A DNA stretch of 19,984 nt from assembly GCA_023132135.1 (NCBI GenBank), contig JAGLYR010000249.1:1-19984 (forward strand), written 5' to 3'. Position 1 is the stretch's first letter; the number at the start of each line of letters is the position of its first letter. Made by a program: the position numbers and the translations under genes. Shown in pieces: positions 2,585 to 19,250 of this stretch. The DNA comes from Candidatus Eiseniibacteriota bacterium (GTDB lineage Bacteria; Arandabacterota; Arandabacteria; JAGLYR01). The notes beneath the pieces were generated by a model. That model saw only the letters and a list, made by a program, of their open reading frames with translations. It did not search any database and was not told the DNA's origin.

Positions 2585-2664
2585 GGAAAAAGGCATTGGA
2601 GGTCCCCGGACCTTCCTCTCCTACCTTCTCCCCTTTTCCTGCTCTCCAGCTCTCGCCTTGTCGC

Positions 2665-2689
2665 GAAAAAAAGCGGGGTTCCCCCCACT
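2665..2689 (-). terminator. hairpin with GGAA loop and T tract at the start of the comM leader
   Basis: On the minus strand AGTGGGG-GGAA-CCCCGCT is followed by six more T residues. The stem has 7 pairs with one U-G pair (2687/2674), which is C-G in the copy at 18685-18702. GGAA is a GNRA-type loop. It looks like an intrinsic terminator or attenuator, but it starts only about 3 nt after the predicted transcription start, which is unusually early; a 5' stabilising stem-loop is an alternative. Confidence 0.5.
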
Positions 2690-2698
2690 CCAGAGATA

Positions 2699-2727
2699 AC
2701 CCTACGGCGGTCCGCCGCCAATGTCAA
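2699..2727 (-). promoter_or_regulatory. sigma-70-like promoter with palindromic spacer, facing comM
   Basis: On the minus strand the -35 is TTGACA (2727-2722) and the -10 is TAGGGT (2704-2699), 17 bp apart. The spacer contains CGGCGG-A-CCGCCG, a perfect inverted repeat. The predicted start is near 2692, giving a leader of about 200 nt to the chosen start codon of the ComM-like gene. Confidence 0.7.
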
Positions 2728-2801
2728 CACCGTTGTTGCTGACTGATGCCCCAGTCTTTGCCGAGTTTTGCCTGTCTCGACATTTGCGCGTGAATCCGTG
2801 C

Positions 2802-2830
2802 TTGAGCGGAACCCCGATATCTGATATAAT
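2802..2830 (+). promoter_or_regulatory. sigma-70-like extended -10 promoter for the surface-protein genes
   Basis: TTGAGC (2802-2807) and TATAAT (2825-2830) are separated by 17 bp, and TGA just before the -10 gives the extended TGn form. This is the best plus-strand promoter match I found upstream of the run of genes starting at 3047. It is back to back with the comM promoter, the two -35 hexamers being about 75 bp apart. Confidence 0.7.
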
Positions 2831-3046
2831 GTGCAATGTTCCAGCCTATGATCATCACTCAGGCTGCACGCCAGACAGCTCCGATACATCACCACGCAGC
2901 CTTTTTCTTCTTGCCGCGAGGAGACCTATGCAGCCCCTACCTCGCACACGCCTGCAGCGGTACCGGACCATCCTATTTCCCTCCGCCTGTAACAGATACC
3001 CGTGGAAGACAACGTCGCATGATTTGTCGGTCTCCAGGGAGGTGGC
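2831..3046 (+). other. long untranslated leader, no gene recognised
   Basis: About 210 nt separate the predicted start (near 2837) from the first coding start at 3047. I see no riboswitch-like pattern, strong hairpin or credible small ORF. The ATG at 2836 opens a frame that runs out of phase into the gene at 3047 and looks like a shadow. The clear feature is the AGGGAGGT ribosome-binding site at 3036-3043. Confidence 0.5.
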
Positions 3047-3634
3047 ATGATGTCTACCCTCAAGTTCCTTCTGGTGTGTCTGGTGATCCTTGCGTCTGTC
3101 CTCGTAGGGCGCGCCGGCCCCATAGTTGCACAAGAAGCGGACGATCCACCCAAACAATCGTCCTACAGGGTCACGTCAGCTGTCATGGGTTCCGCTGGAG
3201 CTCCTGGCGCAAGTGCCAGCTATCAGATCCAGGGTACGATGGGCCAGTCGACTCCCATCGGGATAGGGTCGGCGGCGGACTTGATCCTCTACGCCGGATT
3301 CTGGGGAAAGTTCTGGTCGATGATGTCCTCGGTGAACCACTTCTTCCCCGAGAACTACGAGAACCTGCTGTTCCAGAACTTCCCTAATCCGTTCAACCCC
3401 ACCACCACGCTCAACTACACCGTGGCCCAGGAAAGTCCGGTTGAGATCACGATCTACAACGTCCAGGGCCAGAGGGTTCGGACGCTGGTTCGGGACACCC
3501 GCATGCCCGGGCGATACTTCGCCGTCTGGGATGGCACCAACGACGGCGGCCAACCCGTGGCGACCGGGATGTATTTCTATCGAATGAAGGTTGGGAAATA
3601 CACGTCGGTGAAGAAGATGTTGATGTTGAAGTAA
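3047..3634 (+). CDS. small secreted protein with FlgD-Ig / T9SS-like sorting tail
   Basis: This encodes a 195-residue exported protein. AGGGAGGT sits 4 nt before the ATG at 3047; ATG 3050 is an equally possible start. Residues 1 to about 29 form a signal peptide (LKFLLVCLVILASVLVG...IVAQ). Residues about 38-87 (SYRVTSAVMGSAGAPGASAS...GQSTPIG...LILYAGFW) resemble a short module I know from FCB-type genomes, where it often precedes a sorting tail. Residues about 108-195 form the tail: NFPNPFNPTTTLNYTV, EITIYNVQGQRVRTLV, FAVWDGTNDGGQPVATGMYFYRM, ending KKMLMLK. Such tails direct or anchor proteins at the cell surface in organisms with type IX secretion; whether this host has that system cannot be seen. 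It is the first of five same-strand genes and has almost no passenger domain, so its role is unknown. Confidence 0.85.
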   Translation: MMSTLKFLLVCLVILASVLVGRAGPIVAQEADDPPKQSSYRVTSAVMGSAGAPGASASYQIQGTMGQSTPIGIGSAADLILYAGFWGKFWSMMSSVNHFFPENYENLLFQNFPNPFNPTTTLNYTVAQESPVEITIYNVQGQRVRTLVRDTRMPGRYFAVWDGTNDGGQPVATGMYFYRMKVGKYTSVKKMLMLK

Positions 3635-3635
3635 C

Positions 3636-3670
3636 CGTACTCCGTGCTTCGTGCTCCGTGCTCCGTGCTA
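3636..3670. repeat. 7-bp tandem repeat array (5 units)
   Basis: CGTACTC, CGTGCTT, CGTGCTC, CGTGCTC and CGTGCTA run consecutively, starting one base after the stop codon at 3634. The heptads and the following AAGGAGAA...GCATTGGAG match the end of the array at 2522-2584, so the two are copies of one element with different unit numbers. Confidence 0.75.
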
Positions 3671-3722
3671 AGGAGAACAGCATTGGAGTGAAGCCCGCTG
3701 AGAGCAACAGGAGGCTAGTGAC

Positions 3723-5543
3723 ATGAAACGCATCGCGACGATCTTCCTGGGTTTGATCATTGCAGGGGTGCTCTTCTCTCCCACCGCGGCTGAGGTCCCC
3801 CGCCTGATCAACTACCAGGGAATCCTCACCGATAGCAACGGCCAACCCATCGACGAGCCAAAGGATCTCACCTTCACGATCTATCCGGACAGCGCGCAAG
3901 GATCTGTTGCTATCTGGACCGAGGAGCACGCGCTGGTTCCTGTCAACGAGGGACTGTTCAACGTCATCCTGGGCGGCATCGAGGCAATCCCGGACAGCGT
4001 GTTCGAAAGCGCCGATCGCTGGATGGGCATTACAGTCGATAGCGATCCGGAGATTGCCCCGCGAATGCAGATCACATCCGTGCCGTGGGCCTTCGAATCC
4101 ACCCTCGCGGATTCCTCCCGCAAGAGCGATTGGTTCGGTCTTGGAAACATACCGGATGGCTTCGCAGATGGAATAGACAATCAAGGCGGTGCCGCAGGCG
4201 GAGGCTGGTTTGATGACAGTACCGTCGTACGACTGGAGGACCCTGCTGATTCGGTGGGTATTGGCACCGCAATGCCAACAGAGAAGTTCCAGGTAGTCGG
4301 CAGCGCACTCATCGACAGCCTTTTGGTCAAACACATCGGGGCCATCCGGCACGCGGCCCAGTTTCCGGGCGAATTCGCCAGCGACAGGATCGCTGCAGCC
4401 ATAGCGGATCTGCCGGCCGAGGGCGGGGTCGTGGATGCCACCGGACTGGCCGGATCTCAGACACTGGCCACCAACGTCTTTGCGGATGCGGGCAACAAGA
4501 GTGTCACTCTCATTCTGGGGCCCGCAACATATGACGTCCAGGCAGGGCAGAAATACACCGGCTCGGGGGGTGTGAACATCATCGGCCAGGGCTATGGCAA
4601 CACTGTGCTGGTTGCCGCCTCGAGCATGGACATGATCACCATTCTCCCACCCACCTGGGGACCCAGAGCCCACATCGCGGACCTGGGTATCAACATCGGA
4701 TCTACAAACAGCACGGCCATATTCCTGGAAGGGAGTGTCAACCACGTCGTTGAGCGTGTCTTCTTCACCTGCAACACCGGCTCCACCGTCCCTGTAATCA
4801 AGAACATTGCCTACAGCGTCCACATTCACGACTGCACGTTCGTCAACGGCGGCCGCGTGATCGAGTTCTGGTCCCAGAGCGGCTTTGTCGATCACTGTCG
4901 CTTTAACAACTGCGATGTGAGTGTGTGGGTTCGAACGAACTGCATCTCCGTCACCAACTGTCTATTCGGCGAGCCGATGGGGCGCCATGCGTTCTTTATT
5001 GACGGAGCAGGATACAACTGCACTTTCGCCCGCAATCGTTGTGAAGGTGGTGTCGCCGAGTACGTCAAGATTGTGGGAGACGCCGCCTGGTATCCCGTAC
5101 GTTCTCTGACGATCCGAGAGAACTACTTCACGCAAATGAACACACCCGCCATTGACGGCATCTATCTGAAGAACGTCGCCGGTGTCTCGATCGAGAGCAA
5201 CTGGTTTGCAGAGGGGTTTCCCGGCACCGGCGCCAGTTGCGTTGTGTTTGATGGAGATGTGTCTGATGTGGTCCTCTCCGCCAATACCACCAACACGGAT
5301 GCCACGATGCCCGGCTATGAGGACGTTCCCCTGGCGGTGAACAATGTAACCGTCACGCAGTCCAGCCTGCCCGGCGCGTTCGGGGGTGACCTGACTGTGG
5401 GCGGACAAATCTCAGTCTCAAACTTGATTAATCTCGCGCCGACATTGCCCCCCGATGATCCGGTCGAGGGTGATGTCTACATGGACGAGACCACCCACAA
5501 GTTGATGGTCTTTGACGGGACTACATGGCAGGGATGTTGGTAG
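3723..5543 (+). CDS. secreted right-handed beta-helix protein (cassette copy 1)
   Basis: This encodes a 606-residue exported protein. AGGAGG lies 8 nt before the ATG. Residues 1-23 are a signal peptide ending SPTAA. Residues 24-124 form a conserved domain (VPRLINYQGIL, WTEEH, NEGLFNVILGG, PRMQITSVPWAF). VGIGTAMPTEKFQVVG (178-193) resembles the GIGTTxPxxKLxVxG motif of phage-tail-like fibres. AAQFPG...IAAAIADLPAEGGVVDATG (211-241) matches the start of pectate-lyase-3/beta-helix folds, and residues to about 520 have the short-strand, N-rich pattern of a parallel beta-helix. The end (EGDVYMDETTHKLMVFDGTTW, then QGCW) recalls fibre tips. It has no sorting tail. Its stop is 30 nt before the propeller gene, suggesting joint translation. 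It may be a trimeric surface spike or a polysaccharide-binding protein; no catalytic residues can be assigned. Confidence 0.88.
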   Translation: MKRIATIFLGLIIAGVLFSPTAAEVPRLINYQGILTDSNGQPIDEPKDLTFTIYPDSAQGSVAIWTEEHALVPVNEGLFNVILGGIEAIPDSVFESADRWMGITVDSDPEIAPRMQITSVPWAFESTLADSSRKSDWFGLGNIPDGFADGIDNQGGAAGGGWFDDSTVVRLEDPADSVGIGTAMPTEKFQVVGSALIDSLLVKHIGAIRHAAQFPGEFASDRIAAAIADLPAEGGVVDATGLAGSQTLATNVFADAGNKSVTLILGPATYDVQAGQKYTGSGGVNIIGQGYGNTVLVAASSMDMITILPPTWGPRAHIADLGINIGSTNSTAIFLEGSVNHVVERVFFTCNTGSTVPVIKNIAYSVHIHDCTFVNGGRVIEFWSQSGFVDHCRFNNCDVSVWVRTNCISVTNCLFGEPMGRHAFFIDGAGYNCTFARNRCEGGVAEYVKIVGDAAWYPVRSLTIRENYFTQMNTPAIDGIYLKNVAGVSIESNWFAEGFPGTGASCVVFDGDVSDVVLSANTTNTDATMPGYEDVPLAVNNVTVTQSSLPGAFGGDLTVGGQISVSNLINLAPTLPPDDPVEGDVYMDETTHKLMVFDGTTWQGCW

Positions 5544-5573
5544 TCGAGCGGAGCGTTTTGAGTGGAGGATACG

Positions 5574-8500
5574 ATGAAACTGCGAAACTTGGTGATCAGC
5601 CTTCCGATTCTGGCTGCCGTGATGTTCATTTCGCTCACGGCTGAGGCCGGAGTCGAAACTAGCGTTGAGACATTCGAGAACTTCTTCCAGATGAATGGCG
5701 ATTCGACGACTGCTTGGTGGGATACAACCGGGGCAGGGCAACTCACCCTGCCACCCTTTCAGCTAGTTTCGGTAGATACTTCCCACGTACCGGGGCACTC
5801 GGTTGGTGTTATGGTCTCCGGTGACTACGCCTTTGTCGCTGCTGGAGACTCGGGCCTTCAGGTAGTGGATGTCACTCACCCGGACAACCTAGTTCTTGTT
5901 GGCGGCTGTGATACACCTGGAAACGCATACGCAGTTGCCGTCGCCGGGAATTATGCTTATGTCGCTGATGGCACAGCGGGCTTACGCGTTATGGACATCA
6001 GTGATCCCGAGAACCCGACCGACGTGGCGAGCGAGTATCCGCCATTCGACGCACGTGGAATAGCCATCGCCGGGAACTATGCTTACATCGCGGACGGAAT
6101 CCTCGGGATGTTCGTAATCAACGTTGCCGATCCGTTGAATCCTGCGGTTGGCCCAAGTTACGGGTGCGGCGCGACCAACGCGGTTGCGGTCGAAGGGAAC
6201 TCGGCGTATCTGGGCTGCTCGTCCGGCGGTTTCCATGTGGTCGACATCAGCAACCCCATGTCTCCCACGCAAATAGCCACATCCCCGATCTGGATTGGCA
6301 CCGCATATGGCATAGCCGTAGCAGGTAACTACGCTTTTGTGGCCAACGGCTGGGACGGGTTGTTTGTTGTAGACATAGATGTTGACTCTCCTCAGTTCAC
6401 GTGGCCAGTCGGGGGATGCTTGACGAACGGCGATGCCCGCGGCGTGACGCTCGCGGGAGATTGGGCCTATGTCGGGGATTCCAGCGGCGGCTTGACTGTC
6501 GTAGACATCAGCGACCCTGTGAATGCTGTTGTTGCCGGCCCGGCGCTCGCCACGCCAGGGCAGGCCGTTTCCACGGCCGTTTCCGGCGAGCATGCCTACG
6601 TCGCATGCGTTGGTGGAGGACTGGTCGCTGTGGACATTGCCGAGCCGATGTCGCCGCCCCTCCTCGTTGCCCAACACGCCACGCTCGGCAAACCCACTTC
6701 TGTCACCACCGACGGGAATTACGCATACGTGACCGACGGTGATCTCGTAGTATTCGACATCGAGAACCCGTGGGATCCGGAACCTGTCGATACGTTGGTT
6801 ACCCCGGGCGACACCTGGGATGTCAAGATCGCCGGTGACATCGCGTATGTGGCCGACGGTGAGCCCCATCTGCTGGCCGTTGACATCACAGACCCTAGGG
6901 ATTGCGTCTGGGAGGGTTTCTGGGGCACACCTGAGGAACCGGGCGACATTGTCGTCTCTGGTGACTATGCCTACGTCGCAGACGGTGGTAGGGGACTTGT
7001 TATCTTGGACGTAAGTGTTCCGGCCGCTCCGGACTCTGTCTACAGGTTCCACTTTGGTGGGGGTGGCATAGCGAAGGGACTGGCGATTCGGGGAGACTAC
7101 TGCTACGTCGCGGACAACACACTCGGGCTCCGCGTCGTGGACATTAGCAACCCTCTGTTGCCGGTGCTGGAATCCACGACAGATACTCCAGGGACGGCTC
7201 TGGCTGTGGCCGTGGATAGCACTGGAACGCGCGCGCTTGTGGCGGATGGGGACGAGGGTGTTCAAGTTCTCGACGTGACGGATGTATCCGATCCCTCCTT
7301 CCTATGGGGTTATCAAACCCCGGGCAAAGCCTGGGACGTCGAGATCTCCGGTAACGTGGCCGTCGTCGCCGACGGCGACCCAGGAGTTCTTCTGATCGAC
7401 TTCAGCGATCCGCTGCTCGGGACCCGAGATACAGATGGTGATGCATGGAATGTTGTGCTGGACGGGGACTACGCATATGTGGCGGACGCCACGGCGGGCT
7501 TCCATGTGATCGACGTCAGCGATCCCCAGGCGCCCGGATCTCCCATCATTCTCGCCGGCACGGTCTCAGACATCGCCGTCGAGGGGTCATACGCATACGC
7601 ATCATGCCTCGACGGGCTCTGGTCTGTCGACGTTACAGACCCCACGATTCCAGACAGCGCCGGCTACGTTCCTCTGAGCGGCATAGCTCTCGCGGTCGAC
7701 GTCTCGGGCGTACACGCTTACGTAGCCGCCGGTGAATTCGGAGTGCAGGTGGTTGATGTGACAGACCCCGAGAACATGTCTCTCATGGACTCTCTCGATA
7801 CGTACGGAAACGCCCAGGACATTGTTGTTGAGGGGAACATTGCCTGCGTAGCAGGGGGGACCTTCGGGCTTCAACTCATCGATGTCAGCAACCCGGATAG
7901 CCTGGTTCTGCGTGGCACATACGATACACCCGGCCTGGCTCGGGGCGTGGCAGTATCGGGAGATTATGCCTATGTCGCGGACGGCACATCCGGACTTCTG
8001 GTCATCGACGTCAGTAATCCCGGCAGTCCCAAATGGAAGGGCCAGTACAACACTCCCGGGTCCGCAATGGGGGTCGATATTGTGGGCGATGTCGCCTTTG
8101 TAGCTGATTCGGCTTCAGTAGTTGCGCTGGACGTGTCAACTCCCGCCACGCCTGTTCTGCTGGGAAGCCGGGGCACGCTTGGAACAGCAAGAGGGATTGC
8201 GGCGGTCGACAGTATCGCCTTCGTGGCCGATGGAGACAGTGGGCTGCAGGTCGTCGTCAACAGGGACCCCGTGCTGGCGACATTCGATCCAAACAGCGCC
8301 CACCCCGACTACCATGGCACTTCATACTGCGTGAAGGTGGTCGGCGACTCCGTCTTTCTGGCCGACGGTCCAAGCGGAGTCCACCTCATCGACATCACCG
8401 ATCCCGCGAGCCCACAGCACCGGGTCAGGTACCGGCACTGTGGAGTCCTGGGCGCCCGCCGTCTGGATGTAGTCGGCGACATGATATATATCGCCACGCA

Positions 8501-10661
8501 AGACTATGGCCTCACGGTCTACGATCAGCACACAGAGACCCCCTACCCCGTGTGTGTAAGCATCATCAGGGTTGCCACTCCGGGATCCGCCGTATCTGTC
8601 GCTGTTCGCGATGGTTATGCCTACGTGATGGATGACGGTTTTGGCCTCTGGGCTGTCAATCTCGAGGATGCTGAGTGTCCTACCCTTGTTAACGCCTATA
8701 ACCTCGACGGCTATGCGCGGACGGTAGCTGTCGATGGCGATCGGGCTTACACGCCATGGGCGGGGGGTTGGGCGAAGAGCGGCTTCCATGCCTTGGACAT
8801 TCATGATCCTCTTTCTATCGCTGAAGCTGGGGCAACCGACTACAGCGGGCATGGCATCAAAGACCTCGCCGTAGATGGAGACTACGTCTACGCGGCCTCT
8901 CAGCGAGAGTTCCGGGTCTTCAATATCTCCGATCCGGCGGACCCGATACCCTGGGGCGTGGCGACGGGTCAGCTCGGTACCCGCGGCCTGGCAATCTCAG
9001 GCGACCATGTCTACACGACAGACACATGGTTTGGGCTTCGCGTGTTCGATGTCCGGAATCCCGCCAGCCCCACGATGGTCGGAGCGTACGACCCGGACTG
9101 GGAACCCTGGGCCATTGAATTGAGTGGAGACTACGGCTTTGTCGCCGACCACAGCGCCGGCCTCCACGTCGTGGATATCAGCAATCCCCTAGAACCCACG
9201 TTCGTTACGGACTATCCCACGAGCCAGCCGTACGACGTCACTGTGGATGGCGATTACGCTTACATCGCGGATCACGATGAAGGGCTTATCGTGCTTCGCG
9301 TCTTCGACCGCGAGTCGAAGCCCGACTCCAACGTCGCGCTGTCAACTGCCATGGATACAACGAACCTAGACATCGGCCGCTGTCAGATTTCTACGGTTCC
9401 CACCGACATCGACTCCATCCGTTGGGAACTGAGTGCCGACGGCGGTGGTCACTGGCAGGAAGCTCGGCCCGGAAGCCTAGGATGCGTGTTCAGCTACCCT
9501 GGAACCGATCTCCTCTGGAAGGCGAATCTCTACGATGTCGGCCAAGGAAGTCCTGTCTGCAATACTCTGACACTCGAGTGGTGGTTCCAGTGCCCGTTGA
9601 TCACGGATCTGGAGGACGTGCCGGATGACATGGGGAAGTGGATGCGGGTTGAGTTCATCCGGTCGGGATACGACTTTCCGAACACAACCCTGCCCATCGT
9701 GAACTACTTCCTGTGGCGGAGGATCGATGAATCGGAGTCGAAGGCACGAATCGAGTCCGAGGGAACGCTGTTGTCTCCTGCTGAGAAGGGAGATATCTCC
9801 ACGCAGCTGGCTCAGATCGCCTCTTCTCATTCCGTCTACACCCTGGGTGAACGAGTCTTCGCTGTTTCCGATGCAAAGGGCGAATTCCCTGAGGGCACCT
9901 GGGAATATGTGCTGAGTGTCCCGGCCCTGCAACGGGAAACCTACACAGCGCTGGTGCCGACGATTATTGATTCCAACTTCACGATGATGGGCGACTCATT
10001 GGAAGTGTTCTGTGTGTCGGCCCACCGGGAGACGCCAACACTCTGGTATGTGAGCCCGCCGGATAGTGGCTACTCGATCGATGATGTTGGCATGCAGATG
10101 CTGCGCGGCCTCTGCCTCGTGGGCCCGAACGTTATCGAATGGCTGCCCGCTGAGGAGGAGGATCTGGATTGCTACACGGTCTACGTGGCCCGGGATACGG
10201 TAGACTTGATGGCTGCAGCCAAGGTCGTCGATCAAACTGAGGATCCCTCATTCGAGCTTCCGGCCACAACTGCCGGTCTATACGTGTTCGTCACGGCATG
10301 CGACAGGTCCGGCCATGAGAGTCCTCCGTCGAGGGCGATCCTGAACGCAACCGGTGTGACCGGTCCGATTCCGAGCCATTACTTCCTGGCCCAGAACGTC
10401 CCTAATCCTTTCAACCCCATCACTGAGATCACCTACGGCATTCCCGCCGGTCACGCTCCCTCCCGCGTGGAGATGAGCGTCTACGATCCGCTGGGGCGGA
10501 AAGTCCGGACCCTGGTGGATGCGGATCATGGCCCCGGCACCTACTCAGCCGTATGGGACGGCCGCGATCACAACGGCGTCACCGTAGCCAGTGGGATATA
10601 TTTCTACAGGTTGACTTGGAATGGGAATACGGAGACGAAGAGAATGGTATTGCTGAAGTAG
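5574..10661 (+). CDS. giant LVIVD-repeat propeller protein with sorting tail (28 repeats)
   Basis: This encodes a 1695-residue exported protein. I chose ATG 5574 over GTG 5562 because GGAGG (5564-5568) precedes it and a signal peptide (MKLRNLVISLPILAAVMFIS) follows at once. A short motif (STTAWWDTTGAGQLTLPPF) leads into LVIVD repeats at about 83-1245. I count 28, averaging 42 residues, of the form GDYAYVADGxxGLxVVDISDPxxP...TPGxAxxVAVS. LVIVD repeats are predicted beta-propeller blades, so 28 fits four seven-bladed propellers. From about 1246 come a conserved region (RESKPDSN, IRWELSADGGGHW, MRVEFIRS, LWRRID), VSAHRETPTLWYVSPPDSGYS, and an FnIII-like domain (about 1518-1594). The FlgD-Ig/T9SS-like tail occupies 1604-1695. 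It is likely surface-displayed, for binding rather than catalysis. A paralogue lies at 12742-16989. Confidence 0.9.
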   Translation: MKLRNLVISLPILAAVMFISLTAEAGVETSVETFENFFQMNGDSTTAWWDTTGAGQLTLPPFQLVSVDTSHVPGHSVGVMVSGDYAFVAAGDSGLQVVDVTHPDNLVLVGGCDTPGNAYAVAVAGNYAYVADGTAGLRVMDISDPENPTDVASEYPPFDARGIAIAGNYAYIADGILGMFVINVADPLNPAVGPSYGCGATNAVAVEGNSAYLGCSSGGFHVVDISNPMSPTQIATSPIWIGTAYGIAVAGNYAFVANGWDGLFVVDIDVDSPQFTWPVGGCLTNGDARGVTLAGDWAYVGDSSGGLTVVDISDPVNAVVAGPALATPGQAVSTAVSGEHAYVACVGGGLVAVDIAEPMSPPLLVAQHATLGKPTSVTTDGNYAYVTDGDLVVFDIENPWDPEPVDTLVTPGDTWDVKIAGDIAYVADGEPHLLAVDITDPRDCVWEGFWGTPEEPGDIVVSGDYAYVADGGRGLVILDVSVPAAPDSVYRFHFGGGGIAKGLAIRGDYCYVADNTLGLRVVDISNPLLPVLESTTDTPGTALAVAVDSTGTRALVADGDEGVQVLDVTDVSDPSFLWGYQTPGKAWDVEISGNVAVVADGDPGVLLIDFSDPLLGTRDTDGDAWNVVLDGDYAYVADATAGFHVIDVSDPQAPGSPIILAGTVSDIAVEGSYAYASCLDGLWSVDVTDPTIPDSAGYVPLSGIALAVDVSGVHAYVAAGEFGVQVVDVTDPENMSLMDSLDTYGNAQDIVVEGNIACVAGGTFGLQLIDVSNPDSLVLRGTYDTPGLARGVAVSGDYAYVADGTSGLLVIDVSNPGSPKWKGQYNTPGSAMGVDIVGDVAFVADSASVVALDVSTPATPVLLGSRGTLGTARGIAAVDSIAFVADGDSGLQVVVNRDPVLATFDPNSAHPDYHGTSYCVKVVGDSVFLADGPSGVHLIDITDPASPQHRVRYRHCGVLGARRLDVVGDMIYIATQDYGLTVYDQHTETPYPVCVSIIRVATPGSAVSVAVRDGYAYVMDDGFGLWAVNLEDAECPTLVNAYNLDGYARTVAVDGDRAYTPWAGGWAKSGFHALDIHDPLSIAEAGATDYSGHGIKDLAVDGDYVYAASQREFRVFNISDPADPIPWGVATGQLGTRGLAISGDHVYTTDTWFGLRVFDVRNPASPTMVGAYDPDWEPWAIELSGDYGFVADHSAGLHVVDISNPLEPTFVTDYPTSQPYDVTVDGDYAYIADHDEGLIVLRVFDRESKPDSNVALSTAMDTTNLDIGRCQISTVPTDIDSIRWELSADGGGHWQEARPGSLGCVFSYPGTDLLWKANLYDVGQGSPVCNTLTLEWWFQCPLITDLEDVPDDMGKWMRVEFIRSGYDFPNTTLPIVNYFLWRRIDESESKARIESEGTLLSPAEKGDISTQLAQIASSHSVYTLGERVFAVSDAKGEFPEGTWEYVLSVPALQRETYTALVPTIIDSNFTMMGDSLEVFCVSAHRETPTLWYVSPPDSGYSIDDVGMQMLRGLCLVGPNVIEWLPAEEEDLDCYTVYVARDTVDLMAAAKVVDQTEDPSFELPATTAGLYVFVTACDRSGHESPPSRAILNATGVTGPIPSHYFLAQNVPNPFNPITEITYGIPAGHAPSRVEMSVYDPLGRKVRTLVDADHGPGTYSAVWDGRDHNGVTVASGIYFYRLTWNGNTETKRMVLLK
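10533..10648 (+). repeat. near-identical 3' segment shared with the second propeller gene
   Basis: These 116 bases match 16861-16976 with a single difference (G at 10624, C at 16952). They encode the second half of the sorting tail. Just upstream the two genes differ at many synonymous and non-synonymous positions, so the boundary is abrupt. Confidence 0.9.
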
Positions 10662-10677
10662 GAGCCACCGTGGTAGG

Positions 10678-10694
10678 CCGGGCATCTTGCCCGG
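10678..10694. repeat. GC-rich hairpin between the two cassettes
   Basis: CCGGGCA-TCT-TGCCCGG is a perfect 7-bp stem with a 3-nt loop, 17 nt after the stop of the first propeller gene. No T tract follows, so it is not a standard intrinsic terminator; it could be a processing or stability element. The rest of 10662-10804 shows no promoter I trust. Confidence 0.6.
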
Positions 10695-10804
10695 GGACAA
10701 GTACGACAATCCGGACGTTAGATCTGCTCTGCCGCAGGGACGATGGGCAGGGTGAGGGTCCGACAGCTCCTGGTCGCCCTTTCGCATCAACGGGAGGTTT
10801 CACC

Positions 10805-12706
10805 ATGAAACGCCCAGCCACAATCTTCCTCGGCCTGGTCATCGCCGGGCTTCTCCTCTCCCCCACCGCGGCGGAGGTACCACGCCTCATCAACTACCAG
10901 GGGATCCTGACGGATACCGGTGGGCAGCCCGTTGATGGCGATCACAAGATCACATTCGCCATCTATCCCGATAGCGCAGCGGGTGCGACTGCCCTCTGGA
11001 CCGAGGAGCACGATCCGGTCCCCGTCAACGAGGGCCTTTTCAACGTCATCCTGGGTGGCATCGAGGCAATCCCCGACAGCGTGTTCGCATCTGCAAGCCG
11101 CTGGATGGGCATCAAGGTCGACGACGATCCCGAGACCTCGCCACGAATGCAAATCACATCCGTGCCGTGGGCGTTCTCAGCCGCGGCGGCAGATTCAGCT
11201 GCTCTCGTAGATTGGGACAACGTCGCCGGCATGCCCTACGACTTCGCCGACGGTGTGGACAATGTCGGAGGATCCGGAGACGGCCACTCGCTGGATGCCG
11301 CCGATGGTGAGCCAGCCAATGTTGTCTATGCGGATACCTCCGGGCATGTGGGAATCTGGACGACGTCCCCGGAGGAGAAGTTCCATGTGGCGGGCAACGC
11401 GAAAGTCGACAGCTCATTCTCTGCACGAACAGCAACGATCGACAGTCTCCTGATCAAGCATAGAGGAGCTATTCGCTACGCGGATCAGTTCCCGGGCGAT
11501 GACGCCGGGCAGAAAATCGCGGCGGCTATCGCTGACCTTCCGACCGAAGGCGGCATCGTTGATGCACGTGGCTTTTCTGGTGAGCAGTGGATCCAACAGA
11601 ACATATTCGCCGGTGTCGGCAAACGTGTCACGCTCTATCTCGGAGCAGCCACGTACAACATCGCCACGGGGCAGGTCATTGACGACAATCTGGATCTGGG
11701 ATCCATATGTGTGGTCGGGCAGGGAAACAGCACTGTTCTGAAGCCCACATCCAGCATGACAGTCTTTCAGGTGACTTCTGGCGACCAGATACGCTTCGCT
11801 GACATGCGTTTCGACCTCAATGGAACCAATTCGACCGCCATCTTTCTCCGTGGCGTCCTTTGGTACGGTGCCGTACTTGAGAGGCTCTGGGTGGCCGGAA
11901 GTATTGGCACCGCACCCTTGATCCGAGTGGGTGTCAGTGCCTCAACAGCCGCGGCCATCGGAGCGGTCCTGCGGGATCTATGGTTGTTGGGCCCAATAAC
12001 GGCCGACGCAATTGATATCGGTTGCGAAATGGTCCTTGTCGACCACGTTTCCACGATGTTCTGCCGCGCAGGAGTACGGGTGCGCGCAAGCAACGCAACA
12101 TCTATAACGATTTCGAATTCCATGTTTCATAGTGGGCGTCACGCCCTCCTCATAGACGAGGGAGACAACGACACTCTCCTGTTCATGGGCAACTACATGG
12201 AAGGTAACTCTTGGGGACATATTAAGCTCGTTGGATTGGCGGCGCACTTCCCCATTAAGAACGTCATTATCCGAGACAACTATCTCACGCAGATGAACTC
12301 TCCAGACATGTACGGGATATATCTGAAGAACGTGAAAGGGGTCGTGATCGAGGGAAACAGGTTCGCAAGCGGATTTTTGGGATCAGGTGCGGAGAGCGTA
12401 GTATTCGACGAAAATGTATCTGACGTGTGCTTGGCTGGGAACATCGCATTGGCTATGGAACCTACGATGTCCGGATACGACTCGGTCCCCCTACAAGTGA
12501 ACGATGTCACCGCGACACAGTCGAGTAACTCAGGCGGATTCAGCGCAGGTCTCACCGTGGGCGGGATCCTCACGGCCAAGGATATGATGAATATCAGACC
12601 TAGGTTGTCATCTCCAGACGACCCCGTCGAAGGAGATGTTTATATGGATGCTACGACCCACAAGTTGATGGTCTTTGACGGCTCAACATGGCAGGCGTGC
12701 TGGTAG
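10805..12706 (+). CDS. secreted right-handed beta-helix protein (cassette copy 2)
   Basis: This encodes a 633-residue paralogue of the product of 3723-5543. GGGAGG sits 7 nt before the ATG; the frame is open further upstream into the preceding gene, but that part has no start signal and overlaps real coding sequence. Residues 1-23 are a signal peptide nearly identical to copy 1, and 24-124 are the VPRLINYQGIL...PRMQITSVPWAF domain. A longer linker leads to VGIWTTSPEEKFHVAGN (182-198). YADQFPG...KIAAAIADLPTEGGIVDARG (225-256) opens the beta-helix, which runs to about 545. The end (EGDVYMDATTHKLMVFDGSTW, then QACW) matches copy 1. The centre (about 275-430) is poorly conserved with copy 1, while both ends are well conserved, a pattern seen in phage tailspikes. 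It sits 35 nt before its own propeller partner and lacks a sorting tail. Confidence 0.88.
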   Translation: MKRPATIFLGLVIAGLLLSPTAAEVPRLINYQGILTDTGGQPVDGDHKITFAIYPDSAAGATALWTEEHDPVPVNEGLFNVILGGIEAIPDSVFASASRWMGIKVDDDPETSPRMQITSVPWAFSAAAADSAALVDWDNVAGMPYDFADGVDNVGGSGDGHSLDAADGEPANVVYADTSGHVGIWTTSPEEKFHVAGNAKVDSSFSARTATIDSLLIKHRGAIRYADQFPGDDAGQKIAAAIADLPTEGGIVDARGFSGEQWIQQNIFAGVGKRVTLYLGAATYNIATGQVIDDNLDLGSICVVGQGNSTVLKPTSSMTVFQVTSGDQIRFADMRFDLNGTNSTAIFLRGVLWYGAVLERLWVAGSIGTAPLIRVGVSASTAAAIGAVLRDLWLLGPITADAIDIGCEMVLVDHVSTMFCRAGVRVRASNATSITISNSMFHSGRHALLIDEGDNDTLLFMGNYMEGNSWGHIKLVGLAAHFPIKNVIIRDNYLTQMNSPDMYGIYLKNVKGVVIEGNRFASGFLGSGAESVVFDENVSDVCLAGNIALAMEPTMSGYDSVPLQVNDVTATQSSNSGGFSAGLTVGGILTAKDMMNIRPRLSSPDDPVEGDVYMDATTHKLMVFDGSTWQACW

Positions 12707-12741
12707 TGGTCTGCCACTATGATTATGACACGGAGGATATC

Positions 12742-15700
12742 ATGAAACGGCAGGTAATCTTCCCAGTCTTGTTCATCTTGGCCACGACCATTTCGCCGCC
12801 TGTGACGGCACAAGCTGGAGTGAGCTACTATTGTGAAGACTTTACCACGACCGCACATATGAATCCCGACTCGTCCTCCGCTTGGTGGGGTGGAGGCGAA
12901 CTGAAGCTCCATCCATTCACGATGTCTGAAGCAGACACATTGGATACCGCGGGTCACGCATACAACGTAGCGCTGTCTGGTGACTATGCGTATGTGGCCG
13001 ATGGGGATTCACTAGTGGTCATTGATATCGGCAACCCTGAGGACCTCGTCTGGGTAGGGAGTTGCCCAACCCCAGGGACCGCGTACAGTGTCACCGTTGC
13101 AGGGGACTTTGCCTTCATCGCCGACGGTACATCCGGACTACGAGTCATTGACATCTCACACCCCTCCAGCCCCGCAGATTCTGGAGTCATGTCTGGTCCT
13201 CCTTTCGATGCTCGCGCCGTCGTTCTTGCAGGCAACTATGCGTTCATAGCGGATAGTTTGAGCGGGATGCACGTCATCGACATTACGACCCCGTCAGACC
13301 CCATCTATGGTGAGATGTATGACTGTGGTTGTTCGATTCTCGGTGTAACCGTTGAAGGCAACTACGCTTTTGTCTGTGGTCCTGGAGTCTTCGAGATAGT
13401 GGATATTGAGAATCCGCTTGTCCCTGAGTACGCAGCATCGCCGCTGTCCTGGCCGGGCACTGGCTATCACATAGCAATCACAGGGAACCATGCTTATGTG
13501 GCGCATGGGAGCCATGGACTGACCGTGGTGGACATTGATGTTACTTCAGCTACTTTCGGACAGATTGTCACGACATGCCCTACCAACGGCCATGCTCGGG
13601 CCGTTTCCATCATAGGCAACTGGGCATACGTGGCCGACGGCGCGGCCGGGCTCACATTGGTCAACATCAGAGATCCTGAGAATCCCGAGGTGGTTGCCAA
13701 CCTTGACACCCCAGGATCAGCTCACGGCTTGGCCGTGGCTGGGGAGTACGCCTATGTAGCGAACGGGGATTTCGGAGTCAGCGCAGTCGATATCGCTGAA
13801 CCCGTCTTGCCACCGTTTGCGGTCGCTCAGCTTGACCTCCCTGGCGCACCAGGACCAATTACTCTCTGCGGGGACTGTGCGTATATCGGAGACGTGTCGG
13901 ACGGCTGCCTTAAGGTGGTCGATGTTAGCGATCCGAGTAACCCCTGGCTTGCGGACAGCATTGACACGCCCGGAGATGCCAACGACGTTGCCGTGTCCGG
14001 TGACTACGCATATGTTGCGGATGGAACGCCGTCTCTCACAGTACTCGACGTTAGCGATCCCGCCCATCCGACACTGGGCGGTCATCTGAAAGCCCAGGGA
14101 GATGTGACGGACATAACTATCTCGGGGGATTATGCCTATATCTCCGTGGCCAGCGCGGACGCACCAGACTTCAACGGGTACTACGCCATTGATATCACTG
14201 ATCCTCTCCACCCCGTGATTGCAGAAAAGTGCTACATACCAGGAGCTGGGCGCCGTGCGAGCAGTATCTCGGTCCACGACGGCTATGCATACCTGGCGGA
14301 TGGTGCAAAAGGCTTGCGCGTCGTTGACATTCTCGACTGCACATATAGCACATACAATACCCCCGGATTGGCGCATGATGTGGCTATCAGCAATTCGTAC
14401 GCCTACATAGCCTATGGCGAATCCGGCCTTCAGATCGTCGATGTCAGCAATCCAGATAGCCTCTTCCTTGTCGGGAGCTACGATACTCCCGGGATAGCGC
14501 GCGCCGTGGTTCTCAGAGATAGCCTCGCGCTGGTGGCCGATGATGCAGCTGGCCTCATGATTCTCAGTGTCGCTGACCCTGCCAGTCCCCACTCATTGGC
14601 CAACTACCCAACTAGTGGGGTTTCGTACGATGTGGCTGTCGACGATACTATTGCGTACGTAGCCAACCACGCGGAGGGAATGCTTGTCCTGGACATCAGC
14701 GAACCCTCGGCGCCAATCGCGATCGCCATCTATGACCGTCCCTACTGGTCCCCAATGGGCAATGCCTGCGTTGGGATCACAGTGGAAGACGGATTCGCCT
14801 ACATAGCAGACAATCTCTCAGGACTCCACATCGTCGACGTGAGCAGTCTCGCTCCACCAGATTCCGGATGGGCTTGTCGGACACCGGGGGCTGCCTCGGC
14901 AGTTGCCATCAACGGAGGGTACGCGTTCGTGGCAGACGGCGAACATGGGATGCAGGTGGTTGACGTAACTGATCGCAGGAATCCCCGCCTCGTCTATACC
15001 TTTGATACGCAAGGCTATTCGCACTCCATTACTGTCGCTGGAGATCTCGCGTACTTCACGGACTTTGGACTCATATGGGACCGCACGGGTCTGATCGTTG
15101 CCAATGTCACCGATCCCTTGAGACCGGTGCTGGAGGGGTCCAGTCGGCCGGATGAGGATGGTCTCTACGATCCTGACGTCGGCAACGTGGTTGTCTCCGG
15201 CGACCACGCGTACGTCACGGATCAATGGTCTAACCTCCAGGCATACGATCTCAGCGACCCGACTGATCTCAATGTGGTCGGTACGTGCGGTCTGACCACT
15301 GGCGCCTTCGGCGTTGCCGTCGATGGAGATCGTGCCTACGTCGCGAGCTATCACTACGGCTTCGCAGTCGTGGACATTAGCGATCCAGGAGATATGACAC
15401 TTATTGGCAGATTGATCCCTGAGAATACACGGCCCATAGACATCGATCTGTCTGGAGACTTCGCCTTCGTCTCCAGTGACGAGTTCGGACTTCTCGTCAT
15501 TGACATTGCGAACCCTGCTGACCCGGAAATACTTGGTAGCCACCAGACACCAAGCGGCCAGAACGTGGCGGTCGCCGGAGACTACGCGTATCTCACAGAC
15601 ATGGAGTCAGGTCTTTGGATCTTCTCTGTCTTCTCCCGCGAGTCCAAGCCGGATTCAAACTGTGCACTATCCACAGCGATCGACACGACAACCCTCGCCA

Positions 15701-16989
15701 TCGCTCGCTGCCAGATCTCTACGACTCCTGCATATATCGACTCCATCCGCTGGGAGTTGAGCGCGGACGGTGGCAGCCACTGGCAGAGATTCCTGCCCGG
15801 CGTGGGTTCAGCCATCAGTCATCCAGGTAGTGATCTCCTCTGGAAGGCGAATCTCTACAACGTTGGCGCGGACAGTCTTGTCTGTGACTCCCTCTACATC
15901 GAATGGTGGTATGAGTGCCCCCTGATTGATGCCATTGGCGACATCCCCGATGACCAGGGCGGCTGGATGCGGGTGGAGTTCATACGGTCCGCGTATGATT
16001 TCGAGAACACTACCTTGCCAGTTGACGACTATTGCCTCTGGCGGCGGATGGACGGTAAGGGTCTGAGCGCGCAGATCGCAGCTGACGGAATCCGTCTAGA
16101 GGATACGAAGGAGTTGCCGGTTCCTGTCGAGGTCCCGGAAGGCCTATTCGTCCTATCCTTGTCCTATCCGACCTATCTCCTCGACAACCGCGTGTTCCTG
16201 GTGTCGCCCGACTCCAAGGGTGAATTCCCTGATGGCACCTGGGAAATGGTACAGAGCTTGTCAGCTGTGCAGCAAGAGCTCTACGCCGTGGCTGTTCCGA
16301 CGTATGCGGATACCAATGCAGTTGGCGATTCACTTGCCGTGTTCTGCGTTTCAGCCCACAGAGAGACACCTTCTCTCTGGTACGTGAGTCCCCCTGACAG
16401 CGGATTCTCCATAGACAACTTGACTCCTCAGACAATCAGGGGCCTCTGCCTCTCGGGGGACTACGCTATCACGTGGGACGCCAGCGCGGAGGAAGACCTG
16501 GATTACTACTCCGTGTATGTCTGCCTGGATAGTACCAATACCGAACAGGCGAATCTCCTGGCCCAGACCACAGAAACGACCTTCATTCTTCCTGATACGA
16601 CTGCGGGCTGTTACATCTTTGTGACCGCAAGCGACAATACCGGTCTCGAGAGTCCCCCATCGAACATCATCTTCAATTCCAGCAGCGCCCCGCGCATTCC
16701 TGACTACTTCTACCTCGCGCAGAACATGCCCAATCCTTTCAATCCCATCACAGAGATCGCATACGGGATCCCGCGGGGAGCATCCATCTCACGCGTCACC
16801 ATGAACGTCTACGACACATTGGGCCGCAGAGTGCAAACCCTCGTCGACCTCGACCAGGGACCCGGCACCTACTCAGCCGTATGGGACGGCCGCGATCACA
16901 ACGGCGTCACCGTAGCCAGTGGGATATATTTCTACAGGTTGACTTGGAATGCGAATACGGAGACGAAGAGAATGGTGCTGTTGAAGTGA
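12742..16989 (+). CDS. giant LVIVD-repeat propeller protein with sorting tail (21 repeats)
   Basis: This encodes a 1415-residue paralogue of the product of 5574-10661. ATG 12742 follows GGAGG (12732-12736) with the same spacing as in copy 1; the 18 residues upstream in the open frame overlap the previous gene and are not signal-like. A signal peptide ends near VTAQA, followed by SSSAWWGGGELKLHPF. LVIVD repeats span about 80-965; I count 21, averaging 43 residues, which fits three seven-bladed propellers. Repeats 1-9 align with repeats 1-9 of the larger protein, and repeats 15-21 with its 22-28. From about residue 967 the same C-terminal architecture follows (RESKPDSN, IRWELSADGGSHW, MRVEFIRSAYDF, WRRMD, VSAHRETPSLWYVSPPDSGFS, an FnIII-like domain). 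The FlgD-Ig/T9SS-like tail occupies 1324-1415. It is the last gene of the plus-strand run. Confidence 0.9.
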   Translation: MKRQVIFPVLFILATTISPPVTAQAGVSYYCEDFTTTAHMNPDSSSAWWGGGELKLHPFTMSEADTLDTAGHAYNVALSGDYAYVADGDSLVVIDIGNPEDLVWVGSCPTPGTAYSVTVAGDFAFIADGTSGLRVIDISHPSSPADSGVMSGPPFDARAVVLAGNYAFIADSLSGMHVIDITTPSDPIYGEMYDCGCSILGVTVEGNYAFVCGPGVFEIVDIENPLVPEYAASPLSWPGTGYHIAITGNHAYVAHGSHGLTVVDIDVTSATFGQIVTTCPTNGHARAVSIIGNWAYVADGAAGLTLVNIRDPENPEVVANLDTPGSAHGLAVAGEYAYVANGDFGVSAVDIAEPVLPPFAVAQLDLPGAPGPITLCGDCAYIGDVSDGCLKVVDVSDPSNPWLADSIDTPGDANDVAVSGDYAYVADGTPSLTVLDVSDPAHPTLGGHLKAQGDVTDITISGDYAYISVASADAPDFNGYYAIDITDPLHPVIAEKCYIPGAGRRASSISVHDGYAYLADGAKGLRVVDILDCTYSTYNTPGLAHDVAISNSYAYIAYGESGLQIVDVSNPDSLFLVGSYDTPGIARAVVLRDSLALVADDAAGLMILSVADPASPHSLANYPTSGVSYDVAVDDTIAYVANHAEGMLVLDISEPSAPIAIAIYDRPYWSPMGNACVGITVEDGFAYIADNLSGLHIVDVSSLAPPDSGWACRTPGAASAVAINGGYAFVADGEHGMQVVDVTDRRNPRLVYTFDTQGYSHSITVAGDLAYFTDFGLIWDRTGLIVANVTDPLRPVLEGSSRPDEDGLYDPDVGNVVVSGDHAYVTDQWSNLQAYDLSDPTDLNVVGTCGLTTGAFGVAVDGDRAYVASYHYGFAVVDISDPGDMTLIGRLIPENTRPIDIDLSGDFAFVSSDEFGLLVIDIANPADPEILGSHQTPSGQNVAVAGDYAYLTDMESGLWIFSVFSRESKPDSNCALSTAIDTTTLAIARCQISTTPAYIDSIRWELSADGGSHWQRFLPGVGSAISHPGSDLLWKANLYNVGADSLVCDSLYIEWWYECPLIDAIGDIPDDQGGWMRVEFIRSAYDFENTTLPVDDYCLWRRMDGKGLSAQIAADGIRLEDTKELPVPVEVPEGLFVLSLSYPTYLLDNRVFLVSPDSKGEFPDGTWEMVQSLSAVQQELYAVAVPTYADTNAVGDSLAVFCVSAHRETPSLWYVSPPDSGFSIDNLTPQTIRGLCLSGDYAITWDASAEEDLDYYSVYVCLDSTNTEQANLLAQTTETTFILPDTTAGCYIFVTASDNTGLESPPSNIIFNSSSAPRIPDYFYLAQNMPNPFNPITEIAYGIPRGASISRVTMNVYDTLGRRVQTLVDLDQGPGTYSAVWDGRDHNGVTVASGIYFYRLTWNANTETKRMVLLK
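16861..16976 (+). repeat. near-identical 3' segment shared with the first propeller gene
   Basis: This is the partner of 10533-10648, with one mismatch in 116 bases. It starts at CCCGGCACCTACTCAGCC and ends just before the last four codons, where synonymous differences reappear (GTG CTG TTG here, GTA TTG CTG there). Confidence 0.9.
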
Positions 16990-17071
16990 CAAACTTGGAT
17001 TGCGGGCTTCGCCCCGTCGGAGTTGTTGGAGGCGAATTCTTCCGAGCGACCTAGACCCTGAAATGCGGCAC

Positions 17072-17096
17072 TGCAAGACCTGACACCGAAGACGCG
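17072..17096 (+). repeat. TGCAAGACCTGAC element, second copy
   Basis: TGCAAGACCTGACACCGAAG and the following ACGCGC match 248-272 with one or two changes. It lies in the 143-bp gap between the converging propeller and S41 genes. The gap also holds a weak GGGC-TTC-GCCC hairpin (17004-17014) without a T tract; no convincing terminator is seen. Confidence 0.55.
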
Positions 17097-17132
17097 CTAT
17101 GGAGCACTGGTCCATCTATCCCAATCTGGCCC

Positions 17133-18578
17133 TCATCGGTTCACAGCATTTAGATGCTTCCGAGCAGCCTGAAACGCCTCTTCGCTACTCGTCTCGATAT
17201 CAGGGACAACTCCCCGGCCATCAAGACGAACCCCCTGACCAGTAAGATAATCGACAGTCGGAACCCATAGGATCCAGCCTTCGCCAACCTCATGTTCTGT
17301 GATCCACAACATTGCAGCGGCGGTTTGCTCGCCGATGATGGTGGCCCGCCCGATCTCCTGGAGACCTGCGACGAGTGGCTCACAAGCGGAGGCTGTTTTC
17401 GCATTAACCAACACAACGACTGGACCAGCGTAAATGGGATCGACCGGCTCGACTATACCCACGAATGCACCGTGCTCCCGGATCAAGGAATTGAACTCGT
17501 CCTCAGAGGATATGGATGTCACTGTTGGAAAGTCGCTCAACTCGCGGGCGAGCACCCGGGATCGCGCTCTGCGATCAAAGAACACGCCCATGTCCACCGC
17601 AGACTCGATAAGGTGAGCGGCGACCCTGCCTGATATGTAGGTCCCGCCGGGGTTGTCGCGCAAGTCGATGATGAGGCCGCGAGGATCCCGTCCGATGATG
17701 TCGGCAAAGGCTTCATCGATTCCATCGTAAGAGTCTCCCTCAAAACTGGCGATTCGGAGAGTCACTATTTCCTCATCACTTGTTATGCTGATGGCCTTGC
17801 TCTTGCCCGGCGTGAGTGGCGACGTGGAGGATGTTTCTGCAAGCCGGCTCTCAAACTCGGGATCGAGTTCACGCCCCACGTAGCAATGGGAAAATGTCAG
17901 GTGTCTCGAAGCGAACATCCATGCCATCAGGAATTCCGCATCATCTCGGGCCTTCCTGCCGGCCTCTCGAAGCCGCCGAAGAAAGCCTTGTGTCTCGGGG
18001 GCTTCGTACGCGGCGGGATCAAAGAGGTTCGCTCTGAGCTCGGCGTCTATCCGGTCGATCAACGCAGAATAATCCGTCTTCGGGAAATCTCCTGCGATAG
18101 CCGGTGCGAGAGTCATCAGACCGAACAATCGCTCGTCATCCATTGGGCGTAACTCGATCGGCTTGTCATACGAGTAGAAGTCGGCGTGCAGGTTCGCCCG
18201 GGGTGATTCAAAAATGCCGCGGGCAGCACGGTCTGTGCCCGGAGCCGGACCGTACCAATGCAGAAAAGCGCCGCCCGGGACTCTCTTGTCCCCGATCAGA
18301 TTGACGTAGAAACCAGGCAGACCACCCAGTAATTCACCTGCGGCCCGAGGCCGGCTGTTGGCCCGGAAACCGTCCTCGGAGGGCTCTGCGGCAATCAACG
18401 CCGTCGTGGAACCACAAAACGGACCAATCCCGCGAACATGAACGGTAACAGCATACAGACCGCGTGGAACACCCTCCATGGCTCCCGGCGGCTGGTCATG
18501 GTGCGGAACGACACTGGCACATCCGCACACAATAAGGCAGCCTACACATACCGCCAGCAGGGTGGCGTGGCTTCTCAT
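17133..18578 (-). CDS. S41-family (C-terminal processing-like) peptidase lipoprotein
   Basis: This encodes a 481-residue protein. ATG 18578 is chosen because GGGAGG precedes it by about 7 nt and a lipoprotein signal follows (HATLLAVCVGCLIVCGC, lipidated Cys about 20); the frame is open upstream only through repeat DNA. The N-terminal half (about 21-240) is not recognised. The C-terminal half fits the S41 peptidase core: VTLRIASFEG, then GLIIDLRDNPGGTYISGR, then GPVVVLVNAKTASACEPLVAGLQ, with the nucleophile serine at about 397 (TASAC), and IGEQTAAA. In CtpA/Prc-type enzymes a catalytic lysine lies 25 residues after the serine; here that position is alanine, so this is either a Lys-independent S41B-like enzyme or inactive. 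No PDZ domain is evident. It converges on the propeller gene; its promoter is the module also found upstream of comM. Confidence 0.85.
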   Translation of the reverse strand: MRSHATLLAVCVGCLIVCGCASVVPHHDQPPGAMEGVPRGLYAVTVHVRGIGPFCGSTTALIAAEPSEDGFRANSRPRAAGELLGGLPGFYVNLIGDKRVPGGAFLHWYGPAPGTDRAARGIFESPRANLHADFYSYDKPIELRPMDDERLFGLMTLAPAIAGDFPKTDYSALIDRIDAELRANLFDPAAYEAPETQGFLRRLREAGRKARDDAEFLMAWMFASRHLTFSHCYVGRELDPEFESRLAETSSTSPLTPGKSKAISITSDEEIVTLRIASFEGDSYDGIDEAFADIIGRDPRGLIIDLRDNPGGTYISGRVAAHLIESAVDMGVFFDRRARSRVLARELSDFPTVTSISSEDEFNSLIREHGAFVGIVEPVDPIYAGPVVVLVNAKTASACEPLVAGLQEIGRATIIGEQTAAAMLWITEHEVGEGWILWVPTVDYLTGQGVRLDGRGVVPDIETSSEEAFQAARKHLNAVNR

Positions 18579-18628
18579 TACGATACCTCCCAAAGAGGAC
18601 ACGGTGTCGGTACGAAAACACGTTTCAT
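18578..18628 (-). CDS. possible 16-residue leader peptide overlapping the S41 start
   Basis: ATG 18628 opens a 16-codon ORF (MKRVFVPTPCPLWEVS) ending in TAA at 18580-18578, whose last A is the first base of the S41 gene's ATG (TAATG overlap). A purine-rich tract (GGGGAGAAGGG) lies about 9 nt upstream and could serve as its ribosome-binding site. The S41 gene's own GGGAGG lies inside this ORF. If translated it would couple to the peptidase gene. It could also be chance, given its length. Confidence 0.35.
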   Translation of the reverse strand: MKRVFVPTPCPLWEVS

Positions 18629-18678
18629 CTTCTGATTCCCTTCTCCCCTTTCCTGCTCTCGCGCCCTGCCTTGTCGCG

Positions 18679-18702
18679 AAAAAAAGCGGGGTTCCCCCCG
18701 CT
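18679..18702 (-). terminator. hairpin with GGAA loop and T tract at the start of the S41 leader
   Basis: On the minus strand AGCGGGG-GGAA-CCCCGCT is a perfect 7-bp stem, followed by six more T residues. It begins about 3 nt after the predicted start (near 18705). It looks like an attenuator or terminator, but a 5' stabilising stem-loop is equally possible. Confidence 0.5.
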
Positions 18703-18711
18703 CCACAGACA

Positions 18712-18740
18712 ATCCTACGGCGGTCCGCCGCCAATGTCAA
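18712..18740 (-). promoter_or_regulatory. sigma-70-like promoter with palindromic spacer, facing the S41 gene
   Basis: On the minus strand TTGACA (18740-18735) and TAGGAT (18717-18712) are 17 bp apart, with CGGCGG-A-CCGCCG in the spacer. The spacer sequence is identical to the comM copy; the -10 differs at one base. The predicted leader is about 127 nt. Confidence 0.75.
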
Positions 18741-18760
18741 CACCGTTGTTGCTCCGGCAA

Positions 18761-18782
18761 CGACGGGCTCAGGGCGAACGGA
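18761..18782 (-). repeat. inverted copy of the REP-like core
   Basis: CGACGGGCTCAGGGCGAACG followed by GA is the same sequence as in the inverted element at 182-207. It adjoins the promoter/hairpin module and faces the direct copies at 18812-18954. Confidence 0.65.
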
Positions 18783-18811
18783 GGGCTGCTTGTTCTCCAG
18801 ACACGAAAACA

Positions 18812-18838
18812 CCGTTCGTCCTGAGCTTGACGAAGGGA
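18812..18838 (+). repeat. diverged direct copy of the REP-like core
   Basis: CCGTTCGTCCTGAGCTTGAC followed by GAAGGGA is a variant of the core in which CCCGTC is replaced by CTTGAC. It is followed by CCCAACACGGCCCGGCAGTG, a degraded form of the CCCAACACTGCCGTC tail. Confidence 0.6.
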
Positions 18839-18881
18839 ACCCAACACGGCCCGGCAGTGATTCCTGACCTGGCCCAAGAAA

Positions 18882-18954
18882 CCGTTCGTCCTGAGCCCGT
18901 CGAAGGACACCCACACTGCCGTCCCCCAAACCGTTCGTCCTGAGCTTTGGGGAC
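18882..18954 (+). repeat. 49-bp tandem repeat (one full unit and a partial one)
   Basis: CCGTTCGTCCTGAG occurs at 18882 and 18931, 49 bp apart, the same period as at 1-98. The full unit carries GTCGAAGGAC, CACACTGCCGTC and CCCAAA; the second unit is cut short after GAGCTTTGGGG. Confidence 0.75.
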
Positions 18955-19204: not shown

Positions 19205-19250
19205 GGGAGTCAGACCCAGGAATCTTTGCAGGACCTGACCCCGAGAATGC
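19205..19250. repeat. diverged hairpin element with TTTGCAGGACCTGACCCC motif
   Basis: GGGAGTCAGACCC (19205-19217) and TTTGCAGGACCTGACCCCGA (19225-19244) resemble the two arms of the element at 225-263; the GTCAG/CTGAC core can pair. It is a third, more degraded member of that family. Confidence 0.45.

Follow-up and report, generated by a model that had tools for sequence, protein, structure and literature searches.

One promoter-leader segment, duplicated locally ahead of two unrelated genes, with a terminator sequence at its predicted transcript start

Introduction

How did two unrelated genes on one contig of an uncultured lineage come to share a promoter and a leader, and what would the shared segment do for them? 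The window analysed here is a whole contig of 19,984 bases, from an assembly of 3.40 Mb in 345 contigs that is 96.4% complete. An earlier note on this DNA had placed two promoter copies about 16 kb apart, each before a minus-strand gene, and had suggested that they may put unrelated genes under common control, with an operator-like palindrome in the spacer, or form a small mobile promoter element. The copies are located as claimed and in the same (minus) orientation, and TTGACA-N17-TAGGRT, with an identical spacer containing CGGCGG-A-CCGCCG, was confirmed at both sites. Neither proposed role fared as well, and we conclude that the segment is an unusual local duplication and no genome-wide control system.

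Results

Two copies of one segment

Alignment delimits two copies of a 117-bp segment, both on the minus strand and with abrupt ends (Table 1), which lie 16,013 apart and share 92% identity (7 substitutions and 2 one-base gaps, E 7e-45). In minus-strand order, the segment comprises AGCAACAACGGTG, TTGACA, the spacer TTGGCGGCGGACCGCCG and TAGGGT or TAGGAT; a short discriminator then leads to GGAGYGGGGGGAACCCCGCTTTTTTT and CGCGACAAGGC, and the tail is rich in purines. There are no differences in the 5' 40 bases (AGCAACAACGG...CCGTAGG) and 9 in the other 77 (Fisher p = 0.027), a distribution along the sequence which hints that the palindrome region may matter. Since the copies are related by descent, the two occurrences of the palindrome represent one event and not two independent ones.

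The genes that follow are unrelated, a yifB/comM-type ATPase gene after copy 1 and an S41 lipoprotein gene after copy 2, at 201 and 126 bases respectively from the predicted start site. For yifB, the GTG at 2490 was preferred to the start at 2520 of the longest ORF because alignments with orthologues begin at the first residue of the resulting 510-aa protein.

Table 1. Coordinates of the duplicated segment, its parts and the genes downstream
Feature	Position in window	Strand	Details
Segment copy 1	2629..2745	-	upstream of yifB/comM; 117-bp alignment with copy 2
Promoter copy 1, TTGACA-N17-TAGGGT	2699..2727	-	predicted start about 2691, from spacing
Palindrome CGGCGG-A-CCGCCG, copy 1	2705..2717	.	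between -35 and -10
Terminator sequence, copy 1	2666..2690	-	GAGUGGGG-GGAA-CCCCGCUU stem, U7; 26-nt fold -14.3 kcal/mol
yifB/comM-type Mg-chelatase-like AAA+ ATPase	958..2490	-	PF01078 2e-97, PF13541, PF13335; GTG start 2490
Segment copy 2	18639..18753	-	upstream of S41 lipoprotein gene; 117-bp alignment with copy 1
Promoter copy 2, TTGACA-N17-TAGGAT	18712..18740	-	predicted start about 18704, from spacing
Palindrome CGGCGG-A-CCGCCG, copy 2	18718..18730	.	between -35 and -10
Terminator sequence, copy 2	18679..18703	-	C-G in place of stem U-G; 26-nt fold -16.2 kcal/mol
S41-family peptidase, lipoprotein signal (MRSHATLLAVCVGCLIVCGC)	17133..18578	-	PF03572 5.6e-28; ATG 18578 after GGAGG

The window carries several other repeats. 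Between the two segment copies lies a tandem duplication of a two-gene unit (3722-10661 and 10804-16989; about 70-86% identical, at a spacing of about 6.3-7.1 kb), which encodes a beta-helix protein and then a large protein with many LVIVD-like repeats of ~42 aa and a C-terminal QNxPNPFNPxT motif that resembles a type IX secretion signal. This duplication was considered as the source of the two segment copies and rejected; its spacing of about 7.1 kb does not account for 16,013. An intergenic repeat, CCGTTCGTCCTGAGCCCGTCGAAGG or its complement, is scattered over 1-64, 183-207 and 18760-18945 and reaches the very end of the contig, and segment copy 2 adjoins one truncated copy of this type. A degenerate 7-base tandem tract, GTGCTNC, occurs in the yifB leader (2516-2591) and upstream of the gene at 3723 (3637-3677). 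A motif of the GCAAGACCTGACCCC type is repeated at 230-270, 17068-17100 and 19222-19250, and similar ACCTGACCCC and CTCCGACCCC repeats are found upstream of yifB in four relatives of the same class.

The promoter

The pattern TTGACA-N16-18-TANNNT has 196 matches genome-wide; reversing the pattern leaves 19, and displacing the spacing to 22-24 leaves 34. This promoter grammar is thus enriched 6- to 10-fold over controls in the host genome, and both copies, with -35 and -10 at 16-18 bp, fit it. Among the 99 other promoter matches listed, the spacer is exactly 17 bases in 61 and the -10 element most often has G as its third base; TAGGGT and TAGGAT are themselves middling -10 elements. In a hand-picked, non-random sample, 5/20 promoter matches lay inside open frames of at least 200 codons, compared with 12/20 wrong-spacing controls. 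An ORF no more than 250 nt downstream was no discriminator, accompanying 15 promoter matches and 19 controls. The duplicated promoter is the sole site with at least 8/12 matches in either intergenic gap. The enriched grammar, the intergenic position before each gene and the lack of any other promoter-like site in the gap bear out the earlier description of the element as a promoter, and support taking TTGACA-N17-TAGGRT as a probable sigma-70-type promoter. Its start site, predicted from spacing with a seven-base discriminator, would be the G at 2691 or 18704. Divergent to copy 1, on the plus strand at 2802-2830, TTGAGC-N17-TATAAT, whose -10 is preceded by TG, constitutes a good promoter of the extended type for a gene on that strand.

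The spacer palindrome is perfect over 13 bp. None of the 99 other promoter-like spacers listed has palindromic arms of at least 6 bp, and the composition-matched chance of such arms is 0.7-2.8%. Allowing up to one mismatch, the palindrome is not enriched genome-wide (30 matches versus 25 for the reversed control). It may be incidental, or it may serve these two promoters alone as a local site.

A terminator sequence at the predicted transcript start

After the promoter comes a hairpin. The earlier note had listed it among the retained parts of the module, and it is indeed present and retained; what had gone unrecognised is that its seven T's make it a canonical intrinsic terminator sequence on the promoter's own strand, GGAGYGGGG-GGAA-CCCCGCUUUUUUU. 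The first 26 nt of the predicted RNA read GGAGYGGGGGGAACCCCGCUUUUUUU, with the stem beginning about 2 nt past the predicted start site, and the sole stem difference between the copies keeps the pairing (U-G versus C-G). For comparison with the fold energies in Table 1, the opening 30 nt of the predicted transcripts from 20 other promoters fold at -1.2 to -12.2 kcal/mol. In a 203-kb sample of the host genome, these are the only two T6 runs that follow a clean, strong hairpin. Genome-wide, the promoter pattern is followed 12-42 nt later by T6 at 3 places, 2 of which are the present copies. An automated terminator scan missed both hairpins, probably by letting the stem absorb T's.

Copy number and search for relatives

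No third copy of the segment, of a 27-base core or of the terminator was found in the assembly, although this is fragmented and a missing part could hold one. A DNA search of 60 related genomes, none of the same family and with the class represented by 8 genomes, returned only short, chance-like matches, and an exact-pattern scan of GTDB genomes returned no match. Viral contigs gave 64 matches to a 16-mer, none extending past 25 bases of the element, and no match among plasmids and phages covered over 37% of the query. The element is absent at yifB orthologues in 80 GTDB genomes and in upstream regions within the class, so the ancestral copy cannot be told from these. Neither terminal inverted repeats nor target-site duplications are visible at the alignment borders. 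Rfam gave nothing credible, either for the window at gathering scores or for 2500-2900 at E up to 10. Two RNA candidates were rejected: guanidine-II (mini-ykkC), prompted by the first hairpin, whose loop is ACGG, where the second loop misfits and Rfam has no match, and a small RNA of 75 nt with its 3' end at the terminator, for which there is no promoter upstream of the segment.

Discussion

We hold it, with slightly better than even confidence, that a single local duplication of promoter and leader gave two genes one throttled, low-output promoter. A segment of ~117 bp, carrying a housekeeping, sigma-70-type promoter and its leader, would have been copied once within the region, and would now drive both yifB/comM and the S41 lipoprotein gene. 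Polymerase would bind TTGACA-N17-TAGGRT and start at the G near 2691 or 18704, and the first ~26 nt of RNA would form a GC hairpin capped by GGAA and followed by seven U's. Most initiations would then stop as RNAs of ~25 nt, with mRNA arising from readthrough only; termination at about +25 would hold both genes at a low, readthrough-limited level. Given the predicted start, there is no RNA upstream of the hairpin to form an antiterminator, which makes classical attenuation or a riboswitch unlikely. Against such a throttle, a strong terminator at the start of the promoter of two genes looks counterproductive, and the hairpin may instead act by stabilising the 5' end, or polymerase may read through the U-tract.

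The idea that the same promoter makes an mRNA whose GNRA hairpin shields the 5' end from decay, and terminates inefficiently, draws on the position of the hairpin at the extreme 5' end of the predicted transcript, on the pairing kept in both copies and on the presumption that both genes are expressed. We nevertheless judge it rather unlikely; a U7 tract right after a GC stem of 7-8 bp is a hallmark of termination that stabilisation would not need, and it is exact in both copies. More doubtful is a conventional operator, with a dimeric repressor or activator bound at CGGCGG-A-CCGCCG. A perfect palindrome between -35 and -10, the same in both copies, is what such a site would look like, but its near-equal frequency to the reversed control, the lack of a third promoter with this spacer and the lack of a further segment copy in a 96%-complete genome tell against the common control that had been proposed, and the identity of the spacers may merely reflect recent descent. 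The 17-bp spacing also differs from that of MerR-type sites, where -35 and -10 are typically 19-20 bp apart. Shared descent could still leave the two promoters co-regulated.

The proposal of a small mobile promoter element finds no support past a single duplication, there being two copies on one contig. In its broader form, a small mobile element or foreign relic, whether MITE-like or a gene for a structured RNA, that lies before genes by chance, it can call on the sharp borders of the segment, a terminator unusual for the host genome and three or four predicted minus-strand hairpins (z about -2.1). The searches of this genome, the 60 related genomes, GTDB (exact pattern), plasmids and phages found it nowhere else, neither terminal inverted repeats, target duplications nor an Rfam match was seen, and outside the segment there is no promoter from which a longer RNA could arise; we consider it improbable. 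Least probable, and to our minds very much so, is processive antitermination of the Q or AlpA kind, in which a regulator on the spacer palindrome would load early polymerase to pass the terminator and so co-activate both genes. The layout of a candidate spacer element and a terminator before the gene does fit, and the palindrome is unusual and lies within the best-conserved part. However, neither copy has a -10-like, sigma-dependent pause element in its initial transcribed region (no hexamer there shows A2 and T6), and of the two antiterminator families covered, Phage_antitermQ (PF06530) has no match in the genome and NusG a single one, presumably housekeeping. The terminator is also much closer than in lambda.

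In an uncultured lineage, the locus offers a clean case of a promoter and its leader being copied in front of a gene unrelated to the first. Its strong terminator sequence, lying inside the first 26 bases of the predicted transcript, poses the question of whether cells employ start-site termination as a built-in volume control.

Among known systems, putative mobile promoters and promoter propagation have reportedly been described by Matus-Garcia et al. in 2012 and van Passel et al. in 2014, both cited in PMC8049555. The present case resembles these, as reported, in having a homologous promoter segment before non-homologous genes in one genome, and differs in its two copies 16 kb apart, without sign of spread or horizontal movement, and in the terminator at the transcript start. 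With transcription attenuators it shares an intrinsic terminator in the 5' leader; unlike them, given the predicted start, it leaves no RNA ahead of the terminator in which a leader peptide, aptamer or antiterminator could lie. For AlpA and lambda Q, the site occupies the interval from -35 to -10 and an intrinsic terminator precedes the first gene; two target promoters have been described for AlpA (PMC7969949). Both regulators need a sigma-dependent pause element (PMC9371919). The present promoters likewise combine a candidate recognition sequence between -35 and -10, a terminator between promoter and gene and two target loci, whereas they lack a -10-like pause element and their terminator lies at about +3 to +26. 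Were antitermination nonetheless to operate here, the two genes would form a chromosomal antitermination regulon more compact than that of lambda Q or AlpA.
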